Assembly: GCF_000687715.1 (NCBI RefSeq) | Contig: NZ_JHXD01000004.1 | Location: forward strand, 124,001 to 188,000 | Length of the DNA stretch: 64,000 bases | From: Xylanibacter ruminicola Ga6B6 | GTDB lineage: Bacteria; Bacteroidota; Bacteroidia; Bacteroidales; Bacteroidaceae | Direction of reading: 5' to 3' | Shown here: in pieces, positions 17,300 through 56,623 of the stretch | Numbering within the stretch: position 1 is the stretch's first letter | Layout of the letters: each line of letters opens with the position of its first letter | Position numbers and translations under genes: made by a program | Notes under the pieces: generated by a model | The model's database searches: none | What the model was told of the DNA's origin: nothing | What the model saw: the letters and a program-made list of their open reading frames with translations, nothing else

Positions 17300-17320
17300 C
17301 AATGATTACTAAAAAAGAGT

Positions 17321-17356: not shown

Positions 17357-17390
17357 GCAGTGCCAAATCATACAAATAACAAACAAAAGA

Positions 17391-32653: not shown

Positions 32654-32678
32654 ACAACGATCCAAACTGAATAACAAT

Positions 32679-34316: not shown

Positions 34317-34344
34317 CAAATTCAAAACATCTACCAACACTTTT

Positions 34345-38098: not shown

Positions 38099-40275
38099 TA
38101 AGGACGGTTCTTAATCTGAGTACCCCATGCTGAAGGCTGGTTACCCATCTCGAGTTCGAGTACACCACCCTTCACGATATCCTGGAACATCAGATACGAC
38201 TTAGCATAAGGCTTGCCGTTCAACTTGGCACTCTGTACGTAGATATTCTCCTTGCTATTGTTATGAGCCTTAACAGTAAATGTCTTACCGCCACCTACGT
38301 TAACCTTAGCCTCGTTGAAGAGTGGACTGCCGATGATGTACTTACCACCTGCTGGCTCTACCTGATACAGACCTAACGACGACATGACATACCAAGCCGA
38401 CATCTGACCTACATCCTCGTTACCCGACAGACCGTCGAAATCGTTGAAGTAGAGTTCGCTCATGGTCTGACGCAGCAACTTGGCTGCCTTCCAAGGCTGA
38501 CCTACGTAGTTATACATATATAATATGTGGTGACTAGGCTCGTTGCCATGTGCATACTGTCCAATCAAACCAGAGATATCGGGCGAAGCCTCGGCACCCA
38601 TATCGCCACTGACGATGAAGAGTGAGTCGAACTTCTCAACAAAACGCTTCTCGCTGGGGAACAAACTAACCAGTCCGTGTACATCGTGAGGTACCAGCCA
38701 GGTGTACTGCCAAGCATTACCCTCGGTATAGTCGTCGGCGGTGTGTACACTCTTGAATGGATTGAATGGCTCGTGGAAACTACCATCGCTACCACGTCCA
38801 CGCATAAACAACGTCTTGCGATCGAAATAATGCTTATAGCCACGACTGCGGTTGTAGAAGTACTTGTAATCAGCCTTCTTACCCAACAGCTTAGCTACCT
38901 TAGCGATACAGTCGTCAGCCAGTGCATACTCCAAGCCCTTAGCCACCGTCTGGAAAGTAGAATCCTTATCGTAAGGCAGATAGCCATACTTTTTGAGCAG
39001 ATCCATACTGCGCTCATCAAGCATAGCCGATGTCTTCATGGCATTAAAGGCAGCCTCCTTATCGGCAACAAAACCTTTCAGTACCATATCGGCCAGCACA
39101 GCAGCACCGGGATTACCCACCATACAGTCGGTCTCGTTACCCATCAGGTGCCATACAGGCAGCTTGCCCTGCTGCTCAAAGATGTGCAGGAAAGTGGCAG
39201 CCATATCCTTCTGCTTCTCAGGATGAATCAGTGTCATCAAAGGATGAGCTGCACGATAGGTATCCCAGAGCGAGAAGGTGGTATAGTTGGTAAAGTCGCC
39301 ATGATGCACCTTACCATCGGCACCACGGTAGTTGCCTGTAACATCGCTGAACACCGATGGTGCGGTCATAGTGTGATAAAGGGCTGTATAGAAGATGGTA
39401 CGAACGGTCTCATCGTCGGTATCTACATCAATCTTACCCAACTCGTCGTTCCATGCCTGATTAGCAGCAGCTACGGTAGCCCTGAAATCCCAACCTGGCA
39501 GCTCGGCCTTGAGGTTAGCCTTGGCATCCTCGACACTTACTGCCGAGATGGCACATTTTACCATCACAGGCTTTGAGATATCCTCGAAGGTAAGCACCAT
39601 GATAGAGTCGCCTACCTGCTTCTTCACTTTTACAGGGGTTGAGAACTCGGCTGCAAAGAACACATGCTGATTACGGGCCCAACCCGACGACTGACGGAAG
39701 CCGGTAACCATGGTAGGACTCTCTACAGAAAAACCGCTCTTACGCCAGTTGTCCCAACCGGTACCCTGTCGCAAATCGATACGCAGCATACCTTTATGAT
39801 TGTCGGCACCGAATGTATAACGGTGGAAACCAACGCGTTTTGTAGCAGTGAGCTCAACAAAAACATTAGGCTGCTGCAAACGGATGGCATAGTAGCCTGG
39901 ACGAACCGACTCGTTGGCATGTGAGAACTTAGTCTCGGTAGCGCTGCAATGAGCCACTGGCAGGAAACCGATATCACCCAGATCGCCGATACCCGTACCA
40001 CTCAGGTGGGTATGACCAAAACCTACCAGTACCGAATCGCTGATGTGATAGCCCGAACACCAGTCCCATCCGTGGGTGTGCTCTGTGGGGCCAAGCTGTA
40101 CCACGCCAAAGGGCACATTTGCACCCAGGAATACGTGACCGTGACCTCCGGTACCAATCCAGGGATTAACATAATTAGTAAACTCGTTTTTGTGTTGGCA
40201 AGCATCTGCCGCCATAACCTGACCAGACACTGCAGTCATGGTCAACGCCAGAATAAATTTATTTAAGCATTTCAT
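38098..40275 (-). CDS. Glycoside hydrolase family 92 alpha-mannosidase (copy 1)
   Basis: A 725-residue exported enzyme with signal peptide (ending QVMAAD). The N-terminal beta-sandwich begins YVNPWIGTGGHGHVFLGANVPFG. The (alpha/alpha)6 domain holds the WHLMGNETDCMVGNPGA segment with a Glu where characterised alpha-1,2-mannosidases of this family have their acid (from memory), and GNEDVGQMSAWYVMSSLG. GH92 are calcium-dependent inverting exo-alpha-mannosidases. This copy is transcribed divergently from susC, with GH125 downstream. Confidence 0.94.
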   Translation of the reverse strand: MKCLNKFILALTMTAVSGQVMAADACQHKNEFTNYVNPWIGTGGHGHVFLGANVPFGVVQLGPTEHTHGWDWCSGYHISDSVLVGFGHTHLSGTGIGDLGDIGFLPVAHCSATETKFSHANESVRPGYYAIRLQQPNVFVELTATKRVGFHRYTFGADNHKGMLRIDLRQGTGWDNWRKSGFSVESPTMVTGFRQSSGWARNQHVFFAAEFSTPVKVKKQVGDSIMVLTFEDISKPVMVKCAISAVSVEDAKANLKAELPGWDFRATVAAANQAWNDELGKIDVDTDDETVRTIFYTALYHTMTAPSVFSDVTGNYRGADGKVHHGDFTNYTTFSLWDTYRAAHPLMTLIHPEKQKDMAATFLHIFEQQGKLPVWHLMGNETDCMVGNPGAAVLADMVLKGFVADKEAAFNAMKTSAMLDERSMDLLKKYGYLPYDKDSTFQTVAKGLEYALADDCIAKVAKLLGKKADYKYFYNRSRGYKHYFDRKTLFMRGRGSDGSFHEPFNPFKSVHTADDYTEGNAWQYTWLVPHDVHGLVSLFPSEKRFVEKFDSLFIVSGDMGAEASPDISGLIGQYAHGNEPSHHILYMYNYVGQPWKAAKLLRQTMSELYFNDFDGLSGNEDVGQMSAWYVMSSLGLYQVEPAGGKYIIGSPLFNEAKVNVGGGKTFTVKAHNNSKENIYVQSAKLNGKPYAKSYLMFQDIVKGGVLELEMGNQPSAWGTQIKNRP

Positions 40276-40466: not shown

Positions 40467-43400
40467 ATGAAAATGGGAAATTACTTTCTTAGCTCTCACA
40501 TGAGAGCGTGTATGATGGCCATTTGTCTGCTTTTTGCAGCAGTTGTCAATGCACAGAATGTTACGGTTAAGGGAAGTGTTCTCGACACTAAGGGTGACCC
40601 CATTATTGGAGCCACTATTAAGGTCGAAGGCGCCCAAGCCGGAACGGTTACTAACTACGATGGCGACTTCACCATCTCTTGTCGCAATGGAGCTACGCTT
40701 AATGTCAGCTACATTGGCTTTGCCCCAAAACAGGTAAAAGCCGAGACAGGCAAAGTTCTCAAAATTGTTCTTGAGGAAGAAGCTACTACCCTGAACGAGG
40801 TGGTTGTAACAGCTCTTGGTATCAAGAAAGACCAGAAGAAACTGGGTTACGCCATCAGCTCGATCAACAGCGACGAGCTGATCAAGACTGGTGCTTCTAA
40901 CTTCGCATCAGCCCTGTATGGTAAGGCTCCTGGTGTTCGCATCCAGTCAGCCCCTGGTGGTAACACATCTGCTGTATCTATCTCGGTACGTGGTATGTCA
41001 TCAATCACTGGTAACACCCAGCCTCTGATCGTTATGGACGGTGTGCCCATCCACAACGGTAATACCAATAACGAAGGCTACTGGGACAACCAGCGTATCC
41101 GTTCAAACGGTTTGGTTGATATCAACCCAGAGGATATCGAGAACATCTCAATCCTGAAGGGTGCTGCCGCTTCTGCACTGTACGGATCTGAGGCTGCCAA
41201 CGGTGTTGTAATGATTACCACCAAGAAGGCTGCCAAGGGTACTGGTACACGTGTAAACTTCAGCGCTAACGTAAGCTGGGATAAGATTGCCTACATGCCT
41301 GACATGCAGACAGAGTTCGGTCCTGGTTTCGACAACTGGGCCTATGGTTCAGACGATAATATGGACTGTCTTACAGGTTTCAAGCAGACTATGTTTGATC
41401 GCAATGGCAATACCATCGTAACACCAGCTCAGCCACGTTACTATTCATATGGCCCCCGCTACAATGGCAGAGAGATAACCTATTTCGATGGCACCAAGCG
41501 TCCTTACTCGCCTATCGGTGGCAACCAGTGGAACGAGGTATTCCGCACAGGTTTCAACCAGAACTACAATGTTGCTATCACTAACAGTTCTGAGCGTAGC
41601 AACATCCGCTTCTCATACAACTTCAACGATGTGAAGCCCATGCAGTTCAACTCTGCTAACCACAAGCACAACTTTAATGTAAATGGTTCGTTTGATATTA
41701 CCAACACCATTAAGTTGAACTATACCGCTACTTATCAGAAGCAGTTCATTAAGAACCGTCCTTATCGTATCAGCCGTATCGTCCAGAACTACTCTGGTAT
41801 GTTCGGTAGCTTCACCGATGTTAAGTACATCCGTGAGCACACTATGACAAGTCTCGGTTATCTGAACAGCGTATATGCTGCAAACGGTGGTACTACCAAT
41901 ACTCTGACTCCCGACGAGCAGTTCCTGTACAGCCCAATGGGTTCTACCTCATTGATCAGCGAGTACTTCTGGAACATCCTTGGTAAGGAGCAGCTTGAGG
42001 ATCACCAGCGTTTCATCGGCAGTATCAACCCAACATGGGAGATTATCCCTGGTCTGACACTTGGTGCACGTATTGCTACCGACCTGACATCAGATAAGAT
42101 TGAGAATAAGAACCGTGCAGAGAATGCACATATCTTCTCTTCTAACGGTCAGTACAGCGATGCATACGCACTCGAGAACAGCAAGTACGAGATTGTTTAC
42201 GGTGACGTAATGCTGAGCTTCGACAAGACATTTGCTGATGTTCACAACGTACAGGCTAACTTCGGTTACAACGCCCGTCAGGAGACATACTACATGTCAA
42301 GCGTTAGCACCAGTCAGGGTCTGAGCCAGGAGAACTGGTTTAACCTCGCAGCTTCTGTAGGAACCAAGAACGCCAACATGAACAAGCAGGATATGCTTCG
42401 CACAGGTATGTTCCTCACCGCTAGCTACGGCTACGATAACTGGGCATACATCGAGGGTACTATCCGTAACGAGAAGACCTCTACCCTGAAGAAGGGCAAC
42501 AACTCATTCTGGTATCCATCAGCCAGTGCCAGCATTCTGTTCACAGAGCTGATGAAGGACAACAAGCCAGCTTGGTACGACTATGGTAAGATTCGCGCTT
42601 CTTACGGTATCGTAGGTAACGCTCCTGAGATCTACCGCGCTAACTTGGCATACAGCCAGGGCAACCTGCAGCACGGTGATACTTACATCTACAACTACAT
42701 GAGTACATCTGTAGGTAACGAGAGCATCAAGCCTGAGAAGAAGTACGAGTTCGAGATTGGTCTCGAGAGTAAGTTCTTCAACAACCGCTTAGGTTTCGAG
42801 TTCTCTTACTACCACAATGATATCAAGGACCAGATTCTGCAGACAACTTCTGCCTACTCTATGGGTGCTCAGAGCATGCTGATGAACGTAGGTGAGCTGA
42901 CTAACTCAGGTGCTGAGTTCAGTATCTATGGTACTCCATTCGAGAATAAGGACTGGCGTGTTGACCTGCGTGCTAACATCGCCGTTAATAAGAATAAGGT
43001 AAAGAAACTGGCCGATGGTCTGGATGTTCTTTCACACGCTAACTGGGATAACGGTGCAGCTACCCTTGAGTCACACGTTGGTGAGCCTATGGGTGACTTC
43101 TACACATACACTTGGAAGACCGACGAGAACGGTAACCGTATCGTAGGCGAGGATGGTTTGTACATCACCGATACTTCTGAGCGTCACAAGGTAGGTAACG
43201 CTATGCCTGATGCCGTTGGTGGATTCGCTGCTTCGGTAAGCTACAAGAACTTCACACTGGATATGAGTTTCGACTACCGTATCGGTGGCGACGTTATCAA
43301 CCAGCCTTGGCAGTACTATATGGATACTGGTATCATCAAGGATGCTGTTGGTGCTCGTGACTACCTCTCAGGCGGTCTGTTCTATTACAGCACAACAGGA

Positions 43401-43880
43401 AGTGTTGACGATAAGGCTAGCATCGTACGTGTTGATCCTTCACAGGTTCCTAACTACCAGCGTGGTGTAACCATGATCGACGGTCACTATGTATGGGATA
43501 ACGGTGTTATCCAGCCAGGTGTTAAGGAGGACGGAACTCCTAACGACATCATCACCACTCAGTTTGCTATCAACGATATGCAGTACGGTTGGGGTACCAG
43601 CGCTACTCAGAGCTATCAGGAGGCTATCCAGAAGAACAGCTACGTGAAGTGCCGTGAGATCAGCCTGTCATATCAGCTGCCTACACAGTGGACCAAGCGT
43701 TTCGGATGCAGCAACCTCACAGTATCTGCATTTGCACGTAACCCATTCTATCTCTATCGTACACTGAAGCTGTTCGATTCAGAGACTACCGATGGAACTA
43801 ACTGGATCTATCAGGCACAGGTTGGTGGTTCAACTGCCAGCGCACGCACATTCGGTGTTTCACTCCGTGCAAGCTTCTAA
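40467..43880 (+). CDS. susC: SusC/RagA-family TonB-dependent transporter (second locus)
   Basis: A 1137-residue outer-membrane transporter. Signal peptide (to about residue 30), carboxypeptidase-regulatory-like domain (VKGSVLDTKGDPIIGATIKV), TonB-box-like region LNEVVVTALGIKKDQK and plug with LIVMDGVPIHNGN and SILKGAAASALYGSEAANGV precede the barrel. The C-terminus ends in FGVSLRASF with a terminal Phe. It is clearly different from the transporter of the first locus and of the longer subgroup. It is expected to import large oligosaccharides released from glycoproteins, judging from the surrounding enzymes (inference). Confidence 0.96.
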   Translation: MKMGNYFLSSHMRACMMAICLLFAAVVNAQNVTVKGSVLDTKGDPIIGATIKVEGAQAGTVTNYDGDFTISCRNGATLNVSYIGFAPKQVKAETGKVLKIVLEEEATTLNEVVVTALGIKKDQKKLGYAISSINSDELIKTGASNFASALYGKAPGVRIQSAPGGNTSAVSISVRGMSSITGNTQPLIVMDGVPIHNGNTNNEGYWDNQRIRSNGLVDINPEDIENISILKGAAASALYGSEAANGVVMITTKKAAKGTGTRVNFSANVSWDKIAYMPDMQTEFGPGFDNWAYGSDDNMDCLTGFKQTMFDRNGNTIVTPAQPRYYSYGPRYNGREITYFDGTKRPYSPIGGNQWNEVFRTGFNQNYNVAITNSSERSNIRFSYNFNDVKPMQFNSANHKHNFNVNGSFDITNTIKLNYTATYQKQFIKNRPYRISRIVQNYSGMFGSFTDVKYIREHTMTSLGYLNSVYAANGGTTNTLTPDEQFLYSPMGSTSLISEYFWNILGKEQLEDHQRFIGSINPTWEIIPGLTLGARIATDLTSDKIENKNRAENAHIFSSNGQYSDAYALENSKYEIVYGDVMLSFDKTFADVHNVQANFGYNARQETYYMSSVSTSQGLSQENWFNLAASVGTKNANMNKQDMLRTGMFLTASYGYDNWAYIEGTIRNEKTSTLKKGNNSFWYPSASASILFTELMKDNKPAWYDYGKIRASYGIVGNAPEIYRANLAYSQGNLQHGDTYIYNYMSTSVGNESIKPEKKYEFEIGLESKFFNNRLGFEFSYYHNDIKDQILQTTSAYSMGAQSMLMNVGELTNSGAEFSIYGTPFENKDWRVDLRANIAVNKNKVKKLADGLDVLSHANWDNGAATLESHVGEPMGDFYTYTWKTDENGNRIVGEDGLYITDTSERHKVGNAMPDAVGGFAASVSYKNFTLDMSFDYRIGGDVINQPWQYYMDTGIIKDAVGARDYLSGGLFYYSTTGSVDDKASIVRVDPSQVPNYQRGVTMIDGHYVWDNGVIQPGVKEDGTPNDIITTQFAINDMQYGWGTSATQSYQEAIQKNSYVKCREISLSYQLPTQWTKRFGCSNLTVSAFARNPFYLYRTLKLFDSETTDGTNWIYQAQVGGSTASARTFGVSLRASF

Positions 43881-43929
43881 TAGATGGTGCAATAGAACAT
43901 TTGAAACTAACTAAAAGATTATAAGATTT

Positions 43930-45645
43930 ATGAAAAAGATATTTTTTACAGTCTTTGCTGCAGTGGGAATGATGTCTCTCGTATCTTGTTCTAATTCAGA
44001 CTTTGACGAGAAGTATGCTGACCCATCAAAGACTACAACAGTAGGCGTTCCACAGGTGTTCACCGGCGTGCTTGATGCAGGTAACCGTTGGATGAACCTG
44101 GATTATTGGCGCTATTACACCCAGTCAACCACATCAGGTTGCTTCTCGGGTGTAATCGGTAACGCTAACGGCCGCGGTCGTTTCCGTGGAGCCAGCGAGG
44201 GTTACTTCAATATCCGTTGGCAGGATTTCTACAACATGCTGACTCAGTTCCGTGTGCTGGAGGATACCTATAACAACCTCTCTGACGACGAGAAGGCTGC
44301 TAACAAGATTTTCTTCTATCTTGGTCGTACCTTGATGCAGGCTCAGCTCCACGAGGTTATCTCTATCTGGGGCGATGCTCCCTACTCTGGTGCAGGAACT
44401 CTGTGGAAGACCGGTAACTACGATGCCGCTAAGACAGCAGCTACATACGACGACGACGTACAGATCTACAAGCAGATTCTGGCCGACCTGAAGGAAGTTG
44501 GCGATTACTTCGCCGCTGGCAACTTGAATGCAGCTGGTGTCAGCGCACTGAAGCGTCAGGACTATACTTCTGCCGCTGGTTCTACCGACATCTGGCAGCG
44601 TTATGTTAACTCACTCCGTCTGCGCATCGCTCTGCATCTGGCTACCAATGGTGACCTGACTGCCGACGCTAAGAGCGCTATCCAGGAGATTCTGAGCAAC
44701 CCAACACAGTATCCTCTGATTGAGAGCAACGATCAGAACATCGGTGTAAACGGTGATACAGCTACCGACCACTTCAACTATGGTAAGGGTGTTTCTCAGG
44801 CTCTGGCTGGTAGTTCTATGGCAGCTGGTTCTCAGGCTATGCTCGACGCTATGAACGTTCCTGCAAATGGTATCCCCGATGAGAATACCGACCCACGTCT
44901 GGCTGCTATTTACGATTGCAACCCCGACAACGAGTACATTGCTTACGACAACTCACTCACCAGCAGCGAGATTGACAATATCGCCGATGAGAAGAACAAG
45001 GAGTATGTGGAGCGTGGTATCACCTCTTCAAATTACTATTGTCGTATCGATACCATCGCCTTCGCTGGTTGGGCTGCTTATCAGGGCAACGCTAACCTGA
45101 ATGGTACTTGGATCAACGCTGCTGAGGTAGCTCTGAGCAAGGCCGAGGCTTACCTGATGGGTTACGGTGTAGCTGCTAACGAGGCAACAGCTAAGGAGAA
45201 CTTCATCAAGGGTGTAGTACTCTCTAACGAATACTACTGGAACATGAAGACTACTTCTTCACTGTACAAGGAGGGTAACGACTCATACAGCGGTTTCCGT
45301 GCACTGACCGTTCCTACATCAGCCGACTTCGAGGCATATGCCAACAAGATCTGGAAGGCTACTCAGGAGTGCGTTGCTACTCAGCTCTGGCTGAACTTCG
45401 CCTACCTGAACGAGCTGGAGGCTTGGAACGTGAACCGTCGTACTGGATTCCCCAACGTGAAGTTTGCTAAGGATACCCAGATGGCTGACTATCCTACTCC
45501 TCCAAACCGTCTGCCTTACCCAAGCGACGAGTTGAACTTCAACAAGGACAACTGCGAGGCTGCTAAGGCTATCAACTACTCAGAAAGCACTGGTTACTAC
45601 ACTAACCTGTTCTGGGCTAAGCAGACCTACTATTCACTCTATTAA
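43930..45645 (+). CDS. susD: SusD-family surface glycan-binding lipoprotein (second locus)
   Basis: A 571-residue lipoprotein with lipobox Cys20 (SLVSCSNS). It belongs to the SusD-like_2 subgroup, seen from FDEKYADPSKTT near the start, NIRWQDFYNMLTQFRVLEDTY and the C-terminal RRTGFPNVKF and PPNRLPYPSDELNFN segments. It partners the SusC upstream (49 nt). A terminator-like hairpin follows 25 nt after its stop. No separate surface glycan-binding protein gene is seen behind it. Confidence 0.94.
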   Translation: MKKIFFTVFAAVGMMSLVSCSNSDFDEKYADPSKTTTVGVPQVFTGVLDAGNRWMNLDYWRYYTQSTTSGCFSGVIGNANGRGRFRGASEGYFNIRWQDFYNMLTQFRVLEDTYNNLSDDEKAANKIFFYLGRTLMQAQLHEVISIWGDAPYSGAGTLWKTGNYDAAKTAATYDDDVQIYKQILADLKEVGDYFAAGNLNAAGVSALKRQDYTSAAGSTDIWQRYVNSLRLRIALHLATNGDLTADAKSAIQEILSNPTQYPLIESNDQNIGVNGDTATDHFNYGKGVSQALAGSSMAAGSQAMLDAMNVPANGIPDENTDPRLAAIYDCNPDNEYIAYDNSLTSSEIDNIADEKNKEYVERGITSSNYYCRIDTIAFAGWAAYQGNANLNGTWINAAEVALSKAEAYLMGYGVAANEATAKENFIKGVVLSNEYYWNMKTTSSLYKEGNDSYSGFRALTVPTSADFEAYANKIWKATQECVATQLWLNFAYLNELEAWNVNRRTGFPNVKFAKDTQMADYPTPPNRLPYPSDELNFNKDNCEAAKAINYSESTGYYTNLFWAKQTYYSLY

Positions 45646-45669
45646 AAAATAGATTGAAACACAATAATT

Positions 45670-45704
45670 ATCCCGAGACCCTTTGCGGGTTTCGGGATTT
45701 TTAT
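45670..45704 (+). terminator. Intrinsic terminator or attenuator between susD and GH18-GH78
   Basis: ATCCCGA-ACCC pairs with GGGT-TCGGGAT (45670-45698) and is followed by TTTTTATT. The next start codon is only about 27 nt later and no new promoter fits in between, so some read-through is required. Confidence 0.8.
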
Positions 45705-45730
45705 TAAAACCCAACAAACCCAAAACTGAA

Positions 45731-48700
45731 ATGAAAAGACTTCTATTACTAATTGTCGCATTATGCGTTTTCTGGCATAGTTATGCCGGAAAGCAGGTAA
45801 CAAATCGTGTAGTGGTAGCTTATGTTACCGCAGGTACAACAGAGATTCCCGATCCTACGTTGATGACACACATCAACTATGCGTTCGGAACAGTTAACAA
45901 AACATTTAATGGTGTAGATATCCAAAAGCCAGAACGCCTAAGGGTGATTGCTGGTTTGAAACAGCAGAACCCGGAACTGAAGGTGCTGCTGTCGATTGGT
46001 GGATGGACAGCAGGACGATTCAGCGAAATGGCTGCCACCAAACAGAACCGCGCTGCCTTTGCTAAGGACTGCAAACGCATTGTAGATGAGTTCGGACTGG
46101 ATGGTATCGATATCGACTGGGAATACCCGTCATCCAGCGAGGCTGGTATCTCGTCGTCACCCGACGATATCGATAACTTTACGCTGCTGATGAAGGAACT
46201 GCGCCGCGTGTTAGGTAAACAGAAGCTGCTTACCATCGCCACCATCTGCACCGCAAAGTATATCGACTTTAAGAAATGTCTGCCTTATCTCGACTTGGTG
46301 AATGTAATGTCGTACGACATGAGTGATCCCAACAAGGCACACCATGCAGCCCTCTACCCCTCGCCTATCTCAGGTTACTGCACTGGCTCTGAAGCTGTCG
46401 AGGCACACCTGAAGGCAGGTGTACCCAAGGAGAAACTGGTAATGGGTATGCCCTTCTACCAAAAAGGCAGAAGACAGGATGCTGGTGTTGACGAATACCT
46501 GCGTACGGGTATCCTGCCCGTTGGCTACACACGTCAATGGAGCGATGTGGCCCAAGCCGATTATATTGCCAACGAAAAAGGCGAGTTTGTATGGGCCTAC
46601 GAAACAACCCGTTCCTTAGGCGCCATCTGTCAGTATATCCTTGAAAACAACCTGCGTGGCGGTATGTACTGGGAATACTCGAACGACCGAACTGGTGAAT
46701 TCAGTTCGCTGCTGAGTAAAATGTTGTTGGAGCAGCCCACCACGGTAGGCCATAAAACCACAGCTCTCAACGCATCAGCCTGGCAGAATGCCGAATGGAT
46801 TTCGGTAGTGAACGCCCCCGTAGTAACAGGACGTGCCGATAAGGTGATTCGTGCTGCCGATGGTGCCAGTTGGTTTGTATCTACCATCAAAAACGAAAAG
46901 CCCGTTACACAAGCCAAATGGATGACAACGGGATTAGGTGTGTTTGAGCTTTACCTGAACGGACAACCTGTAGGCGAGGAAATCCTGAAGCCAGGATTTA
47001 CGCATTACGCCAAGACCAAGCGTTCGTTTACCTATGATATCACCGATGCTTTCCAGAAGCAGACAGGTAACGAGAATGTGCTCTCGGCTCAGGTAACTCC
47101 GGGCTGGTGGGCCGACAAGATTATCACCCCTGGTGATCACGAAGGTATGATTGGTAAGAAATGCGCCTTCCGTGGTGTGCTGGAGCTGACATTTGCCGAT
47201 GGTACCAAACAGTACTACGGTACCAACTGCAAGGATTGGAAAGCAGGTATTGCAGGTCCGGTAAAGCATGCCGGTATCTTTGATGGCGAAGCTTTTGATG
47301 CCCGCGAATTGCCTGGGTTTGCTACTATCGAAAAACTCACAACTCCCGAAGTAAACACCGAGTTTACAGGTGAGATAGTTCCATCAGAGGGTGCAGAGGT
47401 TTATCTGCGTCGCGACTTGGCATTACGTCCCGTCAGCACCTATATCTGGCAAGGCGTTACCGGCGAGAAAAAAGCTGCCGACAAGAAGGATATCGAATAT
47501 GGTAAGGTTATCATCAAACGAAACTATGCCCTGGGCGAAACCATCACTCTGAATCCTGGCGAAACGCTGATTGTGGATTTCGGACAGAACACATCGGGTG
47601 TACCGTTCTTTAGCTTTAAAGCGAATGAAGGTACCACACTGACCTGCTTGCCTGCAGAGATTCTGAACGATGGCAACGGTGCCGAGCGTCGTGGTATGGA
47701 TGGGCCTGAAGGTAGTGTACATCGTCGCAACCTGCGTATCCAGAACACAGGTATTCGCATCGATTACACCTTTGCCAACAACCCAAGCTTTGTAAGCTAC
47801 TATCCCCACTGCACGTTCTTTGGCTACCGTTACATCTCGGTAACCGCTACCGATAAGGTGGAGATTCAACGCGTGGAATCGTTGCCTGTAACCAGTATTG
47901 CCAAAGGTCTGGAAATAGGAAAAATCACCACAGGTAACGACCTGATTAACAAGCTGATTTCGAACACTGTTTGGGGCCAGCGTTCTAACTATCTCTCGGT
48001 ACCTACCGACTGTCCACAGCGTGATGAACGATTAGGTTGGATGGCTGATACTCAAGTATTTACAGAGGCAGGTTCATTCTTTGCTAATACCGACGGATTC
48101 TTCCATAAATGGACCCGCGACGTACGCGACTCACAGAGTGCCGCAGGTGGATTCCCAGGTGTATCGCCTACTGCCCAGTATGGTAATGAGATGATGCGTT
48201 TGGGTTGGGCCGATGCCGGTGTGATTGTGCCTTGGACGGTATGGAAGCAGTTTGGCGACAAAGCCATCGTGGATGAGAACTGGGAGGCGATGGAACGCTT
48301 CATGAACCACATCAATGAGGTGAAATACAACCACGAGGCACTCGTAAAAGAGAATGGTAACTACCAATGGGCCGACTGGCTGAGCTGTGAGGCATTGGAA
48401 ACATGTATCAACCTGGCTTTCGACGAGAACTGGAAGCCACGTCCTGATGCCATCGCCTACTGGAATTACCTGAGTGCTTGCTACTGGCAGATTGATGCCG
48501 AGATGATGCGTGACATGGCACTGGCAACAGGTCGCGATGCCACAAAATACCAGCAGATGGCAGAGGCTGCCCAGAATTATCTGAAACAGCAGTTCCTGAA
48601 TCAGGATGGTACCTTTAAGACTGCCGTGCTGAACACCATGCAAACCCCTGCCCTCTTTGCGTTGAAGAACCGTCTGGTTGAGGGTGCTGCTAAGGAGCGT

Positions 48701-49258
48701 ACGATTCAGCGCCTACGCCAGAACTTTGTGGAGCATGGTAACTGCTTGCAGACCGGTTTCTTAGGCACCAGCATCCTGATGGCTACACTCACCGAGAACG
48801 GCATGGTAGATATTGCTTATGAGCTGCTCTTCCAGCGTAAGAACCCCAGTTGGATTTACTCTATCGACAACGGTGCCACCACTATCTGGGAACGCTGGAA
48901 CAGCTACCGCCGCGATAATGGCTTAGGACCTAACGGCATGAACAGTTTTAACCACTATGCCTACGGTGCCGTATGCGAGTGGATTTGGGAGACTGCTGCC
49001 GGAATCGCCACCGATACCCAGGTGCCAGGCTTTAAACAGATAATCATGAAACCTATCCCTGATAAGCGCTTAGGCTTTATGGTAGCCGAATACCAGTCGG
49101 CTGCCGGTTTGATCAAGAGCGAATGGAAATACGAGGGCGACCTGTGGCTGTGGAACTTCACTGTTCCCGAAGGTGCCACCGCCATCGTTACCCTACCCGG
49201 CGATACAACCTCAAAGACATATCCAAGTGGTACTTACCACTTACAAAAGAAACTCTAA
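45731..49258 (+). CDS. GH18-GH78 fusion: chitinase-type hydrolase joined to alpha-L-rhamnosidase
   Basis: A 1175-residue exported protein with two catalytic modules. The start at 45731 gives signal peptide MKRLLLLIVALCVFWHSYA. Residues about 25-330 form a GH18 barrel with KVLLSIGGWT and the DxDxE motif intact (DGIDIDWEYP, acid Glu near 133). Such enzymes cut the GlcNAc-GlcNAc bond of chitin or of N-glycan cores. Residues about 345-1175 form a GH78 protein: the N-terminal sugar-binding domain (GVFELYLNGQPVGEE), a second beta-domain, then the (alpha/alpha)6 barrel with CPQRDERLGWMADTQVF near 765 and a C-terminal beta-domain (about 1085-1175). GH78 enzymes remove alpha-L-rhamnose. Both modules look active. 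The reading frame is continuous across the joint. Confidence 0.9.
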   Translation: MKRLLLLIVALCVFWHSYAGKQVTNRVVVAYVTAGTTEIPDPTLMTHINYAFGTVNKTFNGVDIQKPERLRVIAGLKQQNPELKVLLSIGGWTAGRFSEMAATKQNRAAFAKDCKRIVDEFGLDGIDIDWEYPSSSEAGISSSPDDIDNFTLLMKELRRVLGKQKLLTIATICTAKYIDFKKCLPYLDLVNVMSYDMSDPNKAHHAALYPSPISGYCTGSEAVEAHLKAGVPKEKLVMGMPFYQKGRRQDAGVDEYLRTGILPVGYTRQWSDVAQADYIANEKGEFVWAYETTRSLGAICQYILENNLRGGMYWEYSNDRTGEFSSLLSKMLLEQPTTVGHKTTALNASAWQNAEWISVVNAPVVTGRADKVIRAADGASWFVSTIKNEKPVTQAKWMTTGLGVFELYLNGQPVGEEILKPGFTHYAKTKRSFTYDITDAFQKQTGNENVLSAQVTPGWWADKIITPGDHEGMIGKKCAFRGVLELTFADGTKQYYGTNCKDWKAGIAGPVKHAGIFDGEAFDARELPGFATIEKLTTPEVNTEFTGEIVPSEGAEVYLRRDLALRPVSTYIWQGVTGEKKAADKKDIEYGKVIIKRNYALGETITLNPGETLIVDFGQNTSGVPFFSFKANEGTTLTCLPAEILNDGNGAERRGMDGPEGSVHRRNLRIQNTGIRIDYTFANNPSFVSYYPHCTFFGYRYISVTATDKVEIQRVESLPVTSIAKGLEIGKITTGNDLINKLISNTVWGQRSNYLSVPTDCPQRDERLGWMADTQVFTEAGSFFANTDGFFHKWTRDVRDSQSAAGGFPGVSPTAQYGNEMMRLGWADAGVIVPWTVWKQFGDKAIVDENWEAMERFMNHINEVKYNHEALVKENGNYQWADWLSCEALETCINLAFDENWKPRPDAIAYWNYLSACYWQIDAEMMRDMALATGRDATKYQQMAEAAQNYLKQQFLNQDGTFKTAVLNTMQTPALFALKNRLVEGAAKERTIQRLRQNFVEHGNCLQTGFLGTSILMATLTENGMVDIAYELLFQRKNPSWIYSIDNGATTIWERWNSYRRDNGLGPNGMNSFNHYAYGAVCEWIWETAAGIATDTQVPGFKQIIMKPIPDKRLGFMVAEYQSAAGLIKSEWKYEGDLWLWNFTVPEGATAIVTLPGDTTSKTYPSGTYHLQKKL

Positions 49259-49312: not shown

Positions 49313-52300
49313 TTAGTTAATCGGTGTCACCTCGATTACAGGACTCTGTCCTCTACCATCCTCGGCTTTCCATTCGATGGTAACCACCTTCTGTTCGCCA
49401 GGCATCAAGGTAAAGTAGTTATCGCTATAGATAACTGGCAGAATCTGCTCGCCATCAGCACCCTTCAGATTGATGCGGAGGAATGGAGCAACCGACTTAC
49501 CAGTGTTCTTCACTGTCACAACAGCCTTGGTACCAGTAACTCGTACGTTCTGCTGCAATGCTGTTTTTGGCAGGGTATTCAGGGCACGGTAATTATTTTC
49601 CTCGCGACCCATAATATACTCGTTCTCCGAAATCAAGCCACGCTTATCGGCAAGTGTCAAACGCAGGAACCATACATCCGATGGAGCTTGAGCCTGCAAC
49701 TTAGCCAACTTAAGGATGGCCTTGGTGGTATCCTCGTTGCTATTCAGACGGAACTTCTGCTGACGCACTTTTTTACCGTTCAGATCATAAACAGCAACGG
49801 TAGCGGTGATACCTGCCACGTTACCAGCCGAATGGTTAACCACCTCAACGCTGTCTGTCAGGGCGTTATACTGGATATGCAATGGCTCACAAGCCTTCTT
49901 CACACCAAAGTAAGCCGCTGTGGGATCGAAATAGTAATCGTAAGTCTGCCAAACCATCGAGGGCCAGCATGCATGACTCATCCAGATCAACAGTCCTGCA
50001 CGACTCTTGCTCGTGCTCTCATACATACCACGATAGCCATTATAGTTAATGAGCTGAGCCCAACGGGTAAACTCATCGGCGCTGCTAGCCTTGCCAAGAC
50101 CCTCTTCAACCAGTCCATTAAACTCGCGGGCACGCTGGGCACCTAACAGGGTGTAATCGTGCATACCCCACTGTACGCTCTGCGGCCAGAGTGAATCGGG
50201 ACTCAACGTACGCTTCAGACTCTCGATATTCATTACGTTAGGCATACCACGCTCGGTGTGAATCTTACCACTCTGACGAGAGAAGTACTCTTTCATAGGC
50301 AGTGCCCAGTATGGACCGTGACCACTCACACCATCATCAGCTGAGCTTGAGATAAACTCCAGACCTGGCGACAGGGTGTGTACATACTCACGCAACTTGC
50401 GATCGATAGCTTCGGGAGGGAATCCTTCGTTACGTCCTACCCAGATACCTATGCTGGCATGACTGCGAATACGACGCAGGTAATCCTGTGCATTGCTCAG
50501 GAACAGCAAATCATCATGAGGATCGGGTCCGTCGGCAGGGTTAGCCAACCAGAAGTCCTGCCATACCATGATACCATGCTTATCGCAAGCCTCGTAGAAA
50601 GCCTCGTCGCCTATCTGGCCTACCCAGTTACGAATCATGGTGCAGTTCATTTGCTTGTGGTAACCCACCGCAATATCGTACTCACGTGAACGGTACAGCA
50701 GATTGTGCTCGTCGAAACCCCAGTTACCACCCAGTGGAATAAAGCGTCGACCATTGATATACATGATGAGCGAATCCTTCAGTCCCTCGTATTTCATCTC
50801 ACGGATACCTGCCTTATAGTTGATAGTGGTAGCCACGCCGTTATCAGGTGTGAAGGTAAAGCCAGCCTCGTACAGATTGGGCTCGCCATAACCATTAGGC
50901 CACCACAGTTTGAAGTCGCTGCTGGTCAACTGCTTGTTGCAATGAGGACAGAAGCTTACCTCCTGCTCAGTGTTGGCAGGTAGCGTCATCTTCTTTTCAA
51001 ACTTCACATCGCCAATCCAGCCCTTCAGGGTACCGGATACGGGCTTGTTATCGTTGTTGCGTACAAACACAGCAGGCTTTACGCTGGCTGTTATTCCATC
51101 GGCAGCCAATTTGGTCTTTACGTATGGATCGCTTACGGTAACATTACCTGTTGAGGTGAGATAAACCTCGTTCCAGATACCAACCTCGCGTCCACGTACA
51201 GTCGTAATCCAGTCCCAACCAATCGTAGCATGGAAGGTAGGATTATCGGCACCAAGCAGTCCACCATTCAGCTGGGTGGTGTTGCGGTCCTTCTCCTTCA
51301 CAGCACCAAAGTACTTATTGCACTCCACCTCTACTGCCAGGTAGTTCTTACCGGTATGCAGCAGTCCGGTTACGTTGAACTTGCCACGCATAAAGGCACC
51401 CTCGATACGTCCCAAACGCTGTCCGTTCAGATATACGTTAGCCTTCCAGTTGATACCATCGAAGTTGAGCCACTGCTGCTCACCATCGATACGCTCTACA
51501 TTGAACTCCTGACGGTACCAGAAGTTCGAACGGAAATATGATTCTGAAATCTGATTGATATCATCAGCATAGTTTGGATCGGGTACAGCGCCGATATTCA
51601 TATACGAAGCCAGTATGGTACCAGGTACGGTAGCAGCAATCCAGCTCTTGCTATCATAGTCGGCCGATGCAATCTGCTCGCCACGGGCATCTACCTCCGA
51701 GGCACGCTGCAACTGCCACATGCCGCCACTCAACTCGTAGCGTCCATTCTTCATACCAGCCACAGCATGTGGGGTGTAAACCTGCTTCTGCTTCGACAGA
51801 ACCTCCAGCTCACGCAGCGCATAACAACCTGCCTCACCAGGCTCCTGCAGCAACAAACGCACGTAGCGCGCTGTAGCCTTTACATTCACGCGATCGGCAA
51901 TATCAGCCACCTTTGTCCAGGTTTTAGCATCGTCTGATACCTGGATGATACCCTTTTTAGGAGCATAGAGCCAATCCAGCGCAATCTGCTCGATAGGCAG
52001 ACTCTTTCCTAAGTCGGTGTATATCCACTGCTCGCCGCCACCATCGCTCATCCACAAGCTACTGAACTGCTGCGAAGGCAACAACTCTACATACTCGCCG
52101 ATGGCATTCTGGAACTGCAACTCGTACACGTCCCAGTGGGCAGCACCAGTCATATCCATTACCACACGCAGATGCTGGGTGTTTACAGGTGTCTTGAATT
52201 TGATGAGTTCATCCAACTGACGGGCTGGCAACAGACTCTCCTCGGTCTGTTTGTTGGGGTCGGAATGTAACTTATAGTACAGTGGCTTACCAGGCAGTTT

Positions 52301-52834
52301 GACGCCCTTCAACTCACCAACCACCTGCCAGTCTTTTCCGTTTTCCGAAGCCTCGCATCGAATGCTGTAGCCCTCGGTAGCCAGCTGGTCGTTATAGGCC
52401 ATCATACCTACCACACGTACCCCAGCAGTCTTTACCTTCATGGCACCGCTGTAATCGTACTGCAGCCAGGTCTTCTCACCCATCAGGATGTTCTTCGAAT
52501 AGGCACCGCCATCGATAGCCCACTCTGCCTCCTTACGTGGCAGCACACCATCCTGTGTTGATACCTTGAGCATGATGGGTTCGGCTGTGTCGCAGATGCC
52601 ATCTGTTACCAGATGTGCCGTCAGGTTGTAGTCGATAGCCGACGAAGCCCAAGCCGCACGGTGGCGTGCTACATTTGTTAATGTCTGGCCATTCTCCACC
52701 CAGCTCAGTGTGGGTGCGTAATACTCACTCTTGGCACCCGGATACTGTCCGATGCCACGCGTGTAATCAGTTGGTTGAGGTGCAGCCACAGCGCACATGC
52801 CGATACACGAAAAAATTGCTGTAAGATACTTCAT
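49313..52834 (-). CDS. Glycoside hydrolase family 2 with N-terminal discoidin-like domains
   Basis: A 1173-residue exported enzyme; the start at 52834 (MKYLTAIFSCIGMCAVAAP) is set because the longer frame runs into the promoter at 52861-52869. Two F5/8 type C-like domains (about 45-215 and 235-350) precede the GH2 sugar-binding domain (RSNFWYRQEFNV, about 440-580), an Ig-like domain and the TIM barrel. The acid/base Glu is in WVGRNEGFPPE near 802 and the nucleophile is probably Glu in HTERGMPN near 861. C-terminal Ig-like domains resemble those of exo-beta-glucosaminidases. Beta-mannosidase or exo-glucosaminidase activity is possible. In an N-glycan locus, cleavage of the core beta-mannose would fit. 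Transcribed divergently from GH29. Confidence 0.9.
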   Translation of the reverse strand: MKYLTAIFSCIGMCAVAAPQPTDYTRGIGQYPGAKSEYYAPTLSWVENGQTLTNVARHRAAWASSAIDYNLTAHLVTDGICDTAEPIMLKVSTQDGVLPRKEAEWAIDGGAYSKNILMGEKTWLQYDYSGAMKVKTAGVRVVGMMAYNDQLATEGYSIRCEASENGKDWQVVGELKGVKLPGKPLYYKLHSDPNKQTEESLLPARQLDELIKFKTPVNTQHLRVVMDMTGAAHWDVYELQFQNAIGEYVELLPSQQFSSLWMSDGGGEQWIYTDLGKSLPIEQIALDWLYAPKKGIIQVSDDAKTWTKVADIADRVNVKATARYVRLLLQEPGEAGCYALRELEVLSKQKQVYTPHAVAGMKNGRYELSGGMWQLQRASEVDARGEQIASADYDSKSWIAATVPGTILASYMNIGAVPDPNYADDINQISESYFRSNFWYRQEFNVERIDGEQQWLNFDGINWKANVYLNGQRLGRIEGAFMRGKFNVTGLLHTGKNYLAVEVECNKYFGAVKEKDRNTTQLNGGLLGADNPTFHATIGWDWITTVRGREVGIWNEVYLTSTGNVTVSDPYVKTKLAADGITASVKPAVFVRNNDNKPVSGTLKGWIGDVKFEKKMTLPANTEQEVSFCPHCNKQLTSSDFKLWWPNGYGEPNLYEAGFTFTPDNGVATTINYKAGIREMKYEGLKDSLIMYINGRRFIPLGGNWGFDEHNLLYRSREYDIAVGYHKQMNCTMIRNWVGQIGDEAFYEACDKHGIMVWQDFWLANPADGPDPHDDLLFLSNAQDYLRRIRSHASIGIWVGRNEGFPPEAIDRKLREYVHTLSPGLEFISSSADDGVSGHGPYWALPMKEYFSRQSGKIHTERGMPNVMNIESLKRTLSPDSLWPQSVQWGMHDYTLLGAQRAREFNGLVEEGLGKASSADEFTRWAQLINYNGYRGMYESTSKSRAGLLIWMSHACWPSMVWQTYDYYFDPTAAYFGVKKACEPLHIQYNALTDSVEVVNHSAGNVAGITATVAVYDLNGKKVRQQKFRLNSNEDTTKAILKLAKLQAQAPSDVWFLRLTLADKRGLISENEYIMGREENNYRALNTLPKTALQQNVRVTGTKAVVTVKNTGKSVAPFLRINLKGADGEQILPVIYSDNYFTLMPGEQKVVTIEWKAEDGRGQSPVIEVTPIN

Positions 52835-52860
52835 ATTGTCGTAGTTTCTGATTTTTGTGG

Positions 52861-52920
52861 GCAAAAGTACAAAAAAAATGGATACCATACTAAACTTTCG
52901 TCATTTTTTTGCTATCTTTG
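52861..52920. promoter_or_regulatory. Divergent promoters GH2 / GH29
   Basis: TACTTTTGC on the minus strand (52861-52869) and TATCTTTG on the plus strand (52913-52920) are -7 elements for GH2 and GH29. The intervening sequence is AT-rich. The whole divergent gap is only 115 nt. Confidence 0.7.
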
Positions 52921-52949
52921 CACCCATAACTAATAAACAATTTCATTTC

Positions 52950-54320
52950 ATGCAAAAAACTAGAAAGATATGTCTGGCCTTAGGGCTGGCAGTGTGCCTG
53001 ACGGTAGGCGCACAGGATAACGAAATTCATCAGCGTTCCGAAACCTACGAGTGGCCAACCGACCAGCTGGTAGTAAAGAATCTTAAAGCATGGCAGGACC
53101 TGAAGTTCGGCGTGCTGTTTCATTGGGGATTGTATGCCGTACCTGGCATGGTAGAATCATGGGCTATCTGCGACGAGAATTGGATTACCCGCGACTCTAC
53201 ACGCACCTATCAGCAGTATATGGACTGGTACTTCGGACTGGCCGATGAGCTGAAACCCACCAAGTTTGATCCTACCCAGTGGGCCGAGGCCTGCAGCAAT
53301 GCGGGTATGAAATATATGATTTTCACCACCAAGCACCACGATGGTTTCTGTATGTGGGACTCACAGGAAACCGATTTTACAATTGCCAAGCACGCCTTTA
53401 AGGACGATCCACGTCGCGATGTGCTGAAGCATGTGCTGGATGCCTTCCGCCAGAAGCAGTTTACCATCGGTACCTACTTTTCAAAGCCCGATTGGCACTC
53501 GCAGTACTACTGGTGGGATGTATATGCCAAGAAAGGTCGCAACGTGAACTATCCCGTTGATCAGCACCCCTGGCGCTGGCAGCAGTTCAAGAAGTTCACC
53601 CACAATCAGATGAACGAAATTCTGTCACGTTACGGTAAGGTAGATATCCTGTGGCTCGATGGCGGCTGGGTAGCTAAGGAAAACCGCGGTCAGGATCTGG
53701 ATATGCCCGAGGTGGCCCGTATCGCCCGTAAGAATCAGCCTGGCATCATCATCGTAGACCGTACCATCCATGGTCCTTACGAGAACTACCAGACACCCGA
53801 GCGCACCATCCCCGAAACACAGTTGGATTTCCCTTGGGAGAGCTGTATCCCCTTGAGCGATGACTGGGGCTGGGTACCACGCCCACGTTTCAAGAGTCCT
53901 GAGAAAGTAATTGGTACTCTCATCGAGATTGTAGCCAAGGGTGGTAACCTGGTGTTAGGTGTTGGTCCTACTCCAGAGGGACTGATTGAGCCCGAGAGTG
54001 TAAAACGCCTGAATGCCATCGGTGCCTGGCTCAAACAAAACGGCAAGGCCATCTACAACACCACCATCACCCCCTATTACAACGAGGGTAACGTATGGTT
54101 CACCAAGGCCAAGGACAGCAGTCGCTATTACGCCATCTACCGTTTAAACGATGGCGAGAAGCTGCCCACCAGCATCACCTGGAGTCAGAATCTGCCGAAG
54201 AAATCCATCCGATTGGTAAGCAATGGCAAACGTGTAAAATACAAACTGCAGGGCAACCAGGTAACTGTATATCTGCCCAAGCAGCTGCCACAGCAGTCGG
54301 TTGCACTTGAAATCGAATAA
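52950..54320 (+). CDS. Glycoside hydrolase family 29 alpha-L-fucosidase (copy 1)
   Basis: A 456-residue exported enzyme; start at 52950 (MQKTRKICLALGLAVCLTVGAQ) leaves the promoter outside the gene. GH29 blocks are FGVLFHWGLYAVPGMVESWA, IFTTKHHDGFCMWDS and the nucleophile Asp in DILWLDGGW near 236. A short C-terminal beta-domain closes the protein. Family members remove alpha-linked fucose with retention. It is the first gene of a compact six-gene operon ending at cutC. Confidence 0.93.
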   Translation: MQKTRKICLALGLAVCLTVGAQDNEIHQRSETYEWPTDQLVVKNLKAWQDLKFGVLFHWGLYAVPGMVESWAICDENWITRDSTRTYQQYMDWYFGLADELKPTKFDPTQWAEACSNAGMKYMIFTTKHHDGFCMWDSQETDFTIAKHAFKDDPRRDVLKHVLDAFRQKQFTIGTYFSKPDWHSQYYWWDVYAKKGRNVNYPVDQHPWRWQQFKKFTHNQMNEILSRYGKVDILWLDGGWVAKENRGQDLDMPEVARIARKNQPGIIIVDRTIHGPYENYQTPERTIPETQLDFPWESCIPLSDDWGWVPRPRFKSPEKVIGTLIEIVAKGGNLVLGVGPTPEGLIEPESVKRLNAIGAWLKQNGKAIYNTTITPYYNEGNVWFTKAKDSSRYYAIYRLNDGEKLPTSITWSQNLPKKSIRLVSNGKRVKYKLQGNQVTVYLPKQLPQQSVALEIE

Positions 54321-54346: not shown

Positions 54347-56623
54347 ATGAGGATACATCGCATCCAAAAGGCATTTGCAGCCTTGTTGCTCATAGCATGC
54401 CAGTCGACAGCAACTGCCAAGTTGCAGCCCGTCGATTACGTGAGTACCTTGGTAGGTACTGAGTCGAACTACAACCTCTCAACAGGTAACACCTACCCTG
54501 CCGTTGCCATGCCTTGGGGTATGAACTTCTGGGTGGCACAGACCGGTAAGAATGGAGATGGCTGGCAGTACACCTATACCGCCAACAAGATTCGTGGCTT
54601 GAAACAAACCCACCAGCCCAGTCCTTGGATTAACGATTACGGACAGTTTTCGCTAATGCCAACGGTGGGGCCGAAGGTATTCAACGAAAACAAGCGTGCC
54701 AGCTGGTTCTCGCATAAGGCCGAGATAGCCACACCCTATTATTACAGCGTGTATCTGGCCGATTACGATGTAACTGCCGAGGTGGCTCCTACCGAGCGAG
54801 CCGCCGTGATGCAGTTTACCTTCCCCGAGACTGATGAGGCCAACGTGGTGATTGATGCCTTTGATAACGGTTCGTACGTAAAAATCATCCCCACCGAGAA
54901 TAAGGTGATAGGCTACACCACCAGGAACAGCGGCGGTGTACCCGAGAACTTCAAGAACTGGTTTGTGATGGTGTTCGATAAGCCATTCGCCAACTGCGTA
55001 ACGGTGCAGGATAGCATTTTTACCAAACAGCAGGAGATGACAGCCAATCATGCCGGTGCCATCGTATCGTTCAAGACACGTAAAGGCGAGAAGGTATGTG
55101 CCCGTGTGGCATCATCGTTTATCAGTCTGGAGCAGGCTGAGCAGAACCTGAACGAGATTGGCAAACGTTCTTTGGAGCAGGTAAAAGTTGCAGGCAGCCA
55201 ACGCTGGAACGAGGTTTTGGGACGTATCGAGATCGAAGATAACGATATCGACCACCTGCGCACTTTCTATAGCTGCTTGTACCGCTCCGTGCTCTTCCCA
55301 CGTAGTTTCTACGAGCTCAACGCCCAGGGCGAGCCCATCCACTACAGTCCTTACAACGGCGAGGTTCGTAAGGGTTATATGTTTACTGATACGGGGTTCT
55401 GGGATACCTTCCGCTGTCTGTTCCCGCTGCTCAACCTGGTTTATCCCTCGATGAATGTCAAAATTCAGGAGGGACTGGTAAATGCCTATCTGGAGAGCGG
55501 CTTCCTACCCGAGTGGGCCAGTCCCGGGCATCGTGGCTGCATGGTGGGTAACAACTCTGCCTCGATTGTTGCCGATGCCTACCTGAAGGGGCTACGTGGC
55601 TACGATATCAACAAGCTTTGGGAAGCTGTGGTGCACGGCACCCAGACTGTACACCCCGAGGTGAGCAGCACGGGTAGATTGGGCTACGAGTACTACAACA
55701 AATTAGGCTATGTACCCTACGATGTGAAGATTAATGAGAATGCCGCCCGCACCTTGGAGTACGCTTACGACGACTGGTGCATCTATCAGTTGGGCAAAGC
55801 CTTAGGAAAAAAGAAAAAGGAGATCGACGTGTTTGCCAAGCGCGCCATGAACTATAAGAACCTGTTTGATGCCGAGACCAAGTTGATGCGAGGACGCCTG
55901 AAGAATGGCGAGTTCATGAAGCCCTTCAACCCCTTGAAATGGGGCGACGCCTTTACCGAAGGTAACTCATGGCATTACACCTGGTCGGTATTCCACGACC
56001 CTCAGGGACTCATCAACCTGATGGGCGGTAAGGCTGCGTTCAATCAGATGCTCGACTCGGTATTTGCCCTGCCACCTGTATTCGACGACAGCTACTATGG
56101 CTTTACCATTCACGAAATCCGTGAGATGCAGATTATGAATATGGGCAACTATGCCCATGGTAACCAGCCCATACAGCACATGATTTACCTGTATGGCTAC
56201 AGCGGCGAGCCTTGGAAGACCCAGTATTGGATTAACCAGACAATGAAGCGTATGTACAATGCCAACCCCGATGGTTATTGCGGCGATGAGGACAACGGAC
56301 AGACTTCGGCCTGGTATGTGTTCTCGGCCTTGGGTTTCTATCCCGTTTGTCCCGGCAGCAACCAGTATGTGATTGGCACACCGTATTTCAAGCAGGCCAT
56401 CGTACACCTGGAGAACGGCAACACGCTATCTATCGGTGCCGAGGGCGAAGGCTGCTATATCCAGCAGATGACATTGAATGGTACCGACTACCAGCATAAC
56501 TACCTGGATCACAACCTGCTGATGCAGGGTGCTACCATCCGTTTCGGTATGGGAACCACCGCCAACAAACAGCGCGGTACTCACCCCGAGGATGCCCCCT
56601 ATTCGTTTACGAATATACAATAA
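54347..56623 (+). CDS. Glycoside hydrolase family 92 alpha-mannosidase (copy 2)
   Basis: A 758-residue exported enzyme with a signal peptide; a Cys at residue 18 (LLLIACQST) makes a lipoprotein possible. The GH92 pattern runs from VDYVSTLVGTESNYNLSTGN to GDEDNGQTSAWYVFSALGFYP. In the segment where copy 1 reads GNETDCMVGN, this copy reads GHRGCMVGNNSA, without the Glu. This matches a different GH92 subgroup rather than damage, and suggests another linkage specificity. 26 nt after GH29 in the same operon. Confidence 0.92.
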   Translation: MRIHRIQKAFAALLLIACQSTATAKLQPVDYVSTLVGTESNYNLSTGNTYPAVAMPWGMNFWVAQTGKNGDGWQYTYTANKIRGLKQTHQPSPWINDYGQFSLMPTVGPKVFNENKRASWFSHKAEIATPYYYSVYLADYDVTAEVAPTERAAVMQFTFPETDEANVVIDAFDNGSYVKIIPTENKVIGYTTRNSGGVPENFKNWFVMVFDKPFANCVTVQDSIFTKQQEMTANHAGAIVSFKTRKGEKVCARVASSFISLEQAEQNLNEIGKRSLEQVKVAGSQRWNEVLGRIEIEDNDIDHLRTFYSCLYRSVLFPRSFYELNAQGEPIHYSPYNGEVRKGYMFTDTGFWDTFRCLFPLLNLVYPSMNVKIQEGLVNAYLESGFLPEWASPGHRGCMVGNNSASIVADAYLKGLRGYDINKLWEAVVHGTQTVHPEVSSTGRLGYEYYNKLGYVPYDVKINENAARTLEYAYDDWCIYQLGKALGKKKKEIDVFAKRAMNYKNLFDAETKLMRGRLKNGEFMKPFNPLKWGDAFTEGNSWHYTWSVFHDPQGLINLMGGKAAFNQMLDSVFALPPVFDDSYYGFTIHEIREMQIMNMGNYAHGNQPIQHMIYLYGYSGEPWKTQYWINQTMKRMYNANPDGYCGDEDNGQTSAWYVFSALGFYPVCPGSNQYVIGTPYFKQAIVHLENGNTLSIGAEGEGCYIQQMTLNGTDYQHNYLDHNLLMQGATIRFGMGTTANKQRGTHPEDAPYSFTNIQ

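Follow-up and report, generated by a model that had tools for sequence, protein, structure and literature searches.

The window studied here, a 64,000-nucleotide stretch of Xylanibacter ruminicola Ga6B6 (RefSeq assembly GCF_000687715.1, contig NZ_JHXD01000004.1, positions 124,001–188,000), carries at 45731–49258 on the forward strand a gene whose 1175-residue product joins two glycoside hydrolases (GH), of families 18 and 78. The gene is a single open reading frame (ORF) from the ATG at 45731 to the stop at 49258; a longer alternative, starting with TTG at 45683, is not needed for it. In order along the protein, all on the forward strand, lie a leader of 19 residues (45731–45787), which reads by eye as a type I signal and shows no lipobox by a crude pattern; a chitinase-type GH18 module (45812–46687), assigned by PF00704 (E 8.8e-63, 213 bits against a cut-off of 29.6) and by sequence and structure comparison; a junction or linker (46730–46810); and a full four-domain GH78 enzyme, comprising according to Pfam an N-terminal domain (PF08531, 46901–47329), a concanavalin-like domain (PF05592, 47558–47881), a six-hairpin catalytic domain (PF17389, 47915–48994, E 1.3e-92) and a C-terminal domain (PF17390, 49016–49219). 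These parts are known kinds of enzyme; the joining of GH18 to GH78 is the rare arrangement.

Both sets of catalytic motifs are intact. The GH18 module has DGIDIDWE at residues 124–131 (46100–46123, forward strand) and a YD motif at residues 195–196, and D124, D127, D129, E131, Y195 and D196 are invariant across 19 aligned GH18 sequences. In the GH78 catalytic domain, six active-site positions of the solved structure PDB 3w5m (which we take to be its D630, E636, W640, D643, E895 and H916) are kept as D760, E766, W770, D773, E1054 and H1075, counted on the alignment. A sequence-only reading of this DNA had proposed an exported protein with both active sites preserved in one frame, and had named loss of catalytic residues as a possible objection; Pfam, the motifs, the 3w5m alignment and the leader all agree with the proposal. 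The motifs are identical in the three further carriers of the fusion described below and, measured against one of them (MA2016), both modules are under strong purifying selection (dN/dS 0.050 for GH18, dS 1.25; 0.085 for GH78, dS 1.18), the linker being looser than either (dN 0.37, dS not defined). An AlphaFold model of the whole protein had a mean pLDDT of 55.7 and was not used for domain arrangement.

A contig search found 127 relatives, of which the best 80 loci were kept (52 of them 15 kb or longer), and three of the 80 carried the full fusion: D31d (98% protein identity), Prevotella sp. MA2016 (84%) and SIG140 (84%). Genome searches, with at most two candidates scored per genome, showed the fusion, among the matches listed, in 2/301 genomes of the family and 2/398 of the genus, each time the window's own genome and G281, and in 1/393 of the order, the window's own; by coordinates, the G281 fusion is the MA2016 locus. 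The four fusions fall into two sequence groups that are about 84% identical, while the remaining kept relatives match the GH78 part at 56–79% identity (best segment), mostly as a separate gene of about 860 residues. A 3502-residue open frame in genome G329 was considered and read as an ordinary 857-residue GH78 from the first ATG in the fetched stretch. None of 264 plasmid records with a match covered 80% of the query. No GH18-GH78 architecture was found in a literature search, which did not cover CAZy, where such an architecture may be listed. An assembly or sequencing error merging two genes, which the sequence-only reading had thought might be betrayed by a stop and start around residues 335–350 in relatives, could appeal to the unfused GH18 and GH78 arrangements of locus L034 and genome G322 (below); it is refuted, and left with practically no chance, because D31d, SIG140 and MA2016 (by their titles two isolates and one metagenome-assembled genome) carry the same in-frame junction, with no stop in that region. 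The fusion is thus genuine, conserved and rare.

The junction itself suggests how the gene was made. Most unfused GH78 proteins begin with a signal peptide or lipobox, as judged by eye, followed by a conserved segment around ALDxxAWxxSxWI; a lipobox was present in 51 of 94 GH78 N-termini, by a crude pattern that missed some obvious cases, with starts chosen by script and three of the 94 being fusions. In the fusion, the segment ending W..SxWI directly follows the GH18 C-terminus, which therefore runs into what is the post-signal segment of the unfused proteins, so that both the stop of GH18 and the signal of GH78 were lost in the join. The fused protein would accordingly rely for export on the GH18 leader, in which no lipobox is apparent.

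Phylogeny points to a single origin for the fusion. In a tree of 95 GH78 rows (quick method, SH-aLRT support), the four fusions form one clade (96), with the GH78 of L034 next (98) and that of G322, itself fused to GH97, close by (94); a GH78-GH106 protein belongs to the same 17-row clade (99) but sits at another place within it. For GH18, a tree built on 20 rows selected from the hits retrieved gave the same order: fusions (100/99), L034 (100/97), G322 (99/96). In L034 the gene row is an endonuclease/exonuclease/phosphatase (EEP) domain in front of a GH18 module (9068–10933), an arginine-deiminase-family gene and GH78. In G322 the GH18 is a 329-residue gene beside a GH2 gene, and the GH78-GH97 gene lies about 22 kb away. 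Given the same branching order in both trees and the linkage in L034 and G322, the GH18-GH78 partnership looks older than the fusion. The earlier suggestion that the enzyme pair by itself reveals the target of the locus, a single substrate with rhamnose on a GlcNAc core, stays unproven, given the 72 of 80 GH78 loci in which no GH18 was found in the DNA examined, the five of the 80 that adjoin genes of rhamnose catabolism, the fusion of sister GH78 proteins to GH97 or GH106, and the chitinase-type nature of the GH18.

Other fusions occur among the relatives of both modules. The GH78-GH97 protein of G322 (L036:9929-14731, or G322:C61:37565-42367) has 1600 residues and belongs to the same kind of cluster, and the GH78-GH106 protein (L059:9935-15607) unites two rhamnosidase families in 1890 residues; both share the GH78 lineage of the fusion studied here but differ from it in having C-terminal partners and separate places in the GH78 tree. 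A single 1115-residue frame (L195:2629-5976) encodes a GH78 and, behind it, a solute-binding domain of family 3. Four GH18 relatives are fused to ThuA (L174:5275-7002, L181:6953-8713, L185:5905-7713 and L186:5980-7509, partial in the last), those of L174 and L181 adjoining a GH9 gene, and a more distant GH18 relative shares a protein with GH16 (L181:4253-6946). In G322, a GH65-type gene beside a GH97 gene appears as two overlapping ORFs and may be broken (L142:5284-7193). With partners including GH97, GH106 and a solute-binding domain on one side, and ThuA, EEP and GH16 on the other, both modules are fusion-prone, and two genes of a flexible cluster may have been joined by a deletion with no functional gain, the modules acting independently as before. 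We regard such a neutral fusion as possible, if somewhat unlikely: the fusion has been kept at a dS near 1.2 with both modules constrained, yet each module may be needed for itself.

The fusion gene lies within a cluster of glycoprotein type. Directly upstream on the forward strand are genes for a SusC-type TonB-dependent receptor (40467–43880) and a SusD-like lipoprotein (43930–45645). Further upstream are a PIG-L/LmbE protein (31514–32653, forward; its C-terminal part glucosamine-6-phosphate deaminase-like by NCBIfam), two GH20 genes (32481–34316 and, with PA14, 34264–36594, both forward and given as longest ORFs, the true starts probably being later), a gene of the GH125 alpha-mannosidase family (36635–38098, reverse) and a GH92 gene (38098–40275, reverse). 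Downstream follow a GH2 gene of the exo-glucosaminidase/beta-mannosidase branch (49313–52888, reverse) and, all on the forward strand, a member of the GH29 fucosidase family (52857–54320), a GH92 (54347–56623), a second GH29 whose nearest solved relatives include alpha-1,3/4-fucosidases (56635–58440), a GH3 of the beta-xylosidase/beta-glucosidase branch (58443–60791) and a third GH92 (60792–62963). SusCD stands together here with GH92, GH20, GH29, GH2 and GH3, the combination that marks an N-glycan utilisation locus. The sugars that fit these families (GlcNAc, alpha-mannose, fucose, perhaps also beta-mannose and xylose) are sugars of plant-type N-glycans, and the rhamnosidase is the odd one out, much as the sequence-only reading had remarked in calling rhamnose no usual N-glycan sugar. 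The GH2 has an NE motif and scores best with the exo-glucosaminidase 2vzo, nearly as well with beta-mannosidases; de-acetylation-based processing of chitobiose by PIG-L and GH2 was considered, but these scores would fit either activity of the GH2. PNGase (PF09113), which would free the glycan from its protein, was matched in none of six genomes, the control genomes being silent too.

Searching with the GH2 and inspecting 15 genomes located the cluster in G281 and G322 besides the window's own genome, and all three hold GH18 and GH78; twelve further genomes with GH2 at 64–70% showed no such cluster in the fetched stretches, some of them short. G322 matches the window's PIG-L, two GH20, GH125, two GH92, GH2 and GH29 at 75–94% identity; some of its genes read broken, and its contig ends after a GH92. 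D31d and SIG140 also hold the cluster with GH18 and GH78, but came to light through searches in which the fusion was the query. At the same place in G513 (PIG-L 97%), only PIG-L, GH20 and GH2 were matched, apart from SusC, which matched weakly and in part (36%); the remainder therefore behaves as an added island.

The GH18 module, the only GH18 match in the genome, appears to be of chitinase type, its kinship to N-glycan endoglycosidases being weak or marginal. Its model (pLDDT 88.9) was matched best, among the matches listed, by the chitinase domain of CotE (6t9m; Z 36.9, 2.8 Å, 311 residues), with the next matches near Z 35; sequence and structure neighbours listed include ChiW, the CotE chitinase domain and a GH18 N-acetylglucosaminidase, the last among the structure matches as well. 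ChiW (5gzu), the CotE domain and the Paenibacillus barengoltzii GH18 (6inx) have the fold in common with the fusion GH18, and 5gzu and 6inx also the DxxDxDxE and YD motifs in alignment; unlike the fusion, no GH78 partner is named in the three entries. No endoglycosidase was present among the best 50 rows of each structure search, or named in the best 60 of 135 sequence matches.

The GH78 module, likewise the only match of its family in the genome, belongs to a lineage that looks like a rhamnosidase. The best-scoring solved GH78 is the Streptomyces alpha-L-rhamnosidase 3w5m (phmmer 337 bits), which matches the fusion over its N-terminal and catalytic parts, with the six checked residues kept, but is distant and has no GH18. 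The rhamnose-catabolism protein RhaA was found in 43 of the 54 genus genomes that have this lineage of GH78 (among them the window's own and G281, and two for which the judgement used gene fragments) against 141 of the 344 that do not (Fisher p 1e-7, kinship ignored), and rha genes lay in the fetched DNA of 5/80 GH78 loci, in L084 only as a RhaB-like gene (53%); it is this association, with these neighbours, on which the assignment rests. In one group of loci there are, in addition, further GH78s, GH92, LacZ-type GH2 and an alpha-galactosidase. The order SusC-SusD-GH78 recurs in G322 (with three small genes between), in L043 (4769-13210; SusC homologue 49%, an M15-type peptidase gene following) and in L047 (276-5381; the locus starting close to the end of SusC); in the DNA examined of L043 and L047 the window's GH92, GH20, GH29, GH2 and GH18 were not found. 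In the window's own genome (99.65% complete), searches for RhaA and RhaT gave no match, other rhamnose routes not being searched, and three matches of fucose-isomerase type were seen; D31d and SIG140 (completeness not reported) likewise gave no RhaA. A general link between the fusion and lack of RhaA was rejected: MA2016 has both fusion and RhaA, and KHT3 (completeness not reported), with an unfused relative, has neither.

On these observations we lean, with modest confidence, towards a cell-envelope enzyme with two activities in glycan processing that arose once from two glycosidase genes already partners. It would work, probably in the periplasm, on short imported glycans, the GH18 module being expected to hydrolyse GlcNAc-beta-1,4-GlcNAc (in a chitobiose core or in short chito-oligosaccharides) with the substrate assistance of the GH18 mechanism, and the GH78 module to strip terminal alpha-L-rhamnose by inversion; we infer the location, both activities and any order of action from kinship and motifs. 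The target would most likely be N-glycan-type sugar chains of glycoproteins, plant-type to judge by the enzyme content. As RhaA and RhaT are lacking, the rhamnosidase in this strain more likely uncaps blocking rhamnose than serves feeding on it.

Several results weigh against this explanation. Among the cluster proteins scanned, none was clearly a galactosidase for plant antennae, and rhamnose is not known as a part of ordinary plant N-glycans. The GH18 module meets the EndoS model (PF23916) only marginally (27.9 bits, cut-off 27) and falls far below the cut-off of the NCBIfam EndoH model (NF045482; 34.7 bits against 300). The rest of the cluster was not found in 25 kb around the L034 pair. 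The RhaA association takes no account of the relatedness of genomes, 11 of the 54 lineage genomes are without RhaA, and MA2016 and KHT3 run counter to a simple relation between fusion and lack of RhaA. The likelihoods given here to the favoured reading and to its rivals overlap, and are not meant to sum to one.

Two rivals concern the substrate. The first, which takes up the idea of the sequence-only reading, is a single glycoconjugate that carries rhamnose and has a core of GlcNAc or chitobiose (from a bacterial cell wall or exopolysaccharide, from algae, or a fungal rhamnomannan-protein), for which both modules would be needed in turn. GH18 and GH78 branch in one order and occur linked to each other in three arrangements, the SusC-SusD-GH78 order would allow the transporter to belong to a rhamnosylated glycan, and GH92 is present in the DNA examined of 11 of 77 loci without the fusion. 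We nevertheless hold it rather unlikely, as no GH18 was found in the DNA examined of 72 of the 80 GH78 loci (52 of the 80 being at least 15 kb), the four ThuA-fused and one GH16-fused GH18 relatives have other partners, and, at the level of titles, literature searches pointed to no such rumen glycan; rhamnose is found in chlorovirus N-glycans. A bolder form, in which the partnership is an old selected unit against an undescribed rhamnose-capped glycan on that core, imported by the kind of SusCD travelling with GH78, would amount to a new enzyme system for rhamnosylated N-glycan-like chains, with the bacterium not eating rhamnose by the RhaA route; this we consider distinctly unlikely. The second rival supposes two targets on one glycoprotein, GH18 acting on N-glycans while GH78 takes rhamnose caps off the O-glycans of plant arabinogalactan-proteins; the fusion would in this way clear both decorations. 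Such clearing needs no RhaA, and the best-scoring solved GH78, 3w5m, presumably acts on gum arabic; that kinship is distant, however, no typical arabinogalactan enzymes were seen among the scanned cluster proteins, and the prospect is slim.

Several known systems come near to the window's cluster. Bacteroides N-glycan loci (the B. thetaiotaomicron high-mannose system around BT3983-BT3990, PMC7021837; B. massiliensis plant N-glycan loci, PMC9522356) combine SusCD with GH92 and other exo-glycosidases, the same families as in the window's cluster, and Bacteroides plant N-glycan loci use GH92, GH29, GH3, GH130 and SusCD (PMC9522356). The B. thetaiotaomicron system also has a GH18, described there as acting at the cell surface (PMC7021837), whereas the window's only GH18 is chitinase-type, has by eye a type I leader and is fused to GH78. 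Term searches of main texts gave no GH78 or rhamnose words in PMC9522356 and, in PMC11107044 (a paper dealing with X. ruminicola KHP1), no GH18, GH78, GH92, GH125, N-glycan or rhamnos-. A Xanthomonas campestris N-glycan cluster (cited in PMC10154615) is likewise a bacterial cluster for breaking down plant N-glycans step by step. In a rumen bacterium, one protein of a glycoprotein-type cluster is predicted to combine GlcNAc-cleaving with rhamnose-cleaving activity: should both modules act on one chain, this would point to rhamnose-bearing glycoconjugates as food in the rumen; should they not, the gene would be a clean case of clusters shuffling and fusing enzymes.

The transporter genes beside the fusion differ in strain D31d. 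Over window positions 41326–45717, against about 5644–9987 in D31d (L032), most of SusC and all of SusD differ while the flanks keep 91–93% DNA identity; the D31d SusC and SusD have 57% and 29% protein identity to the window's pair and 86% and 84% to that of G322, an apparent swap of the SusCD cassette that left the enzymes next to it as they were. Window positions 9500–21254 hold another cluster, separate from that of the fusion, in which GH115, SusCD and a hybrid two-component regulator occur.

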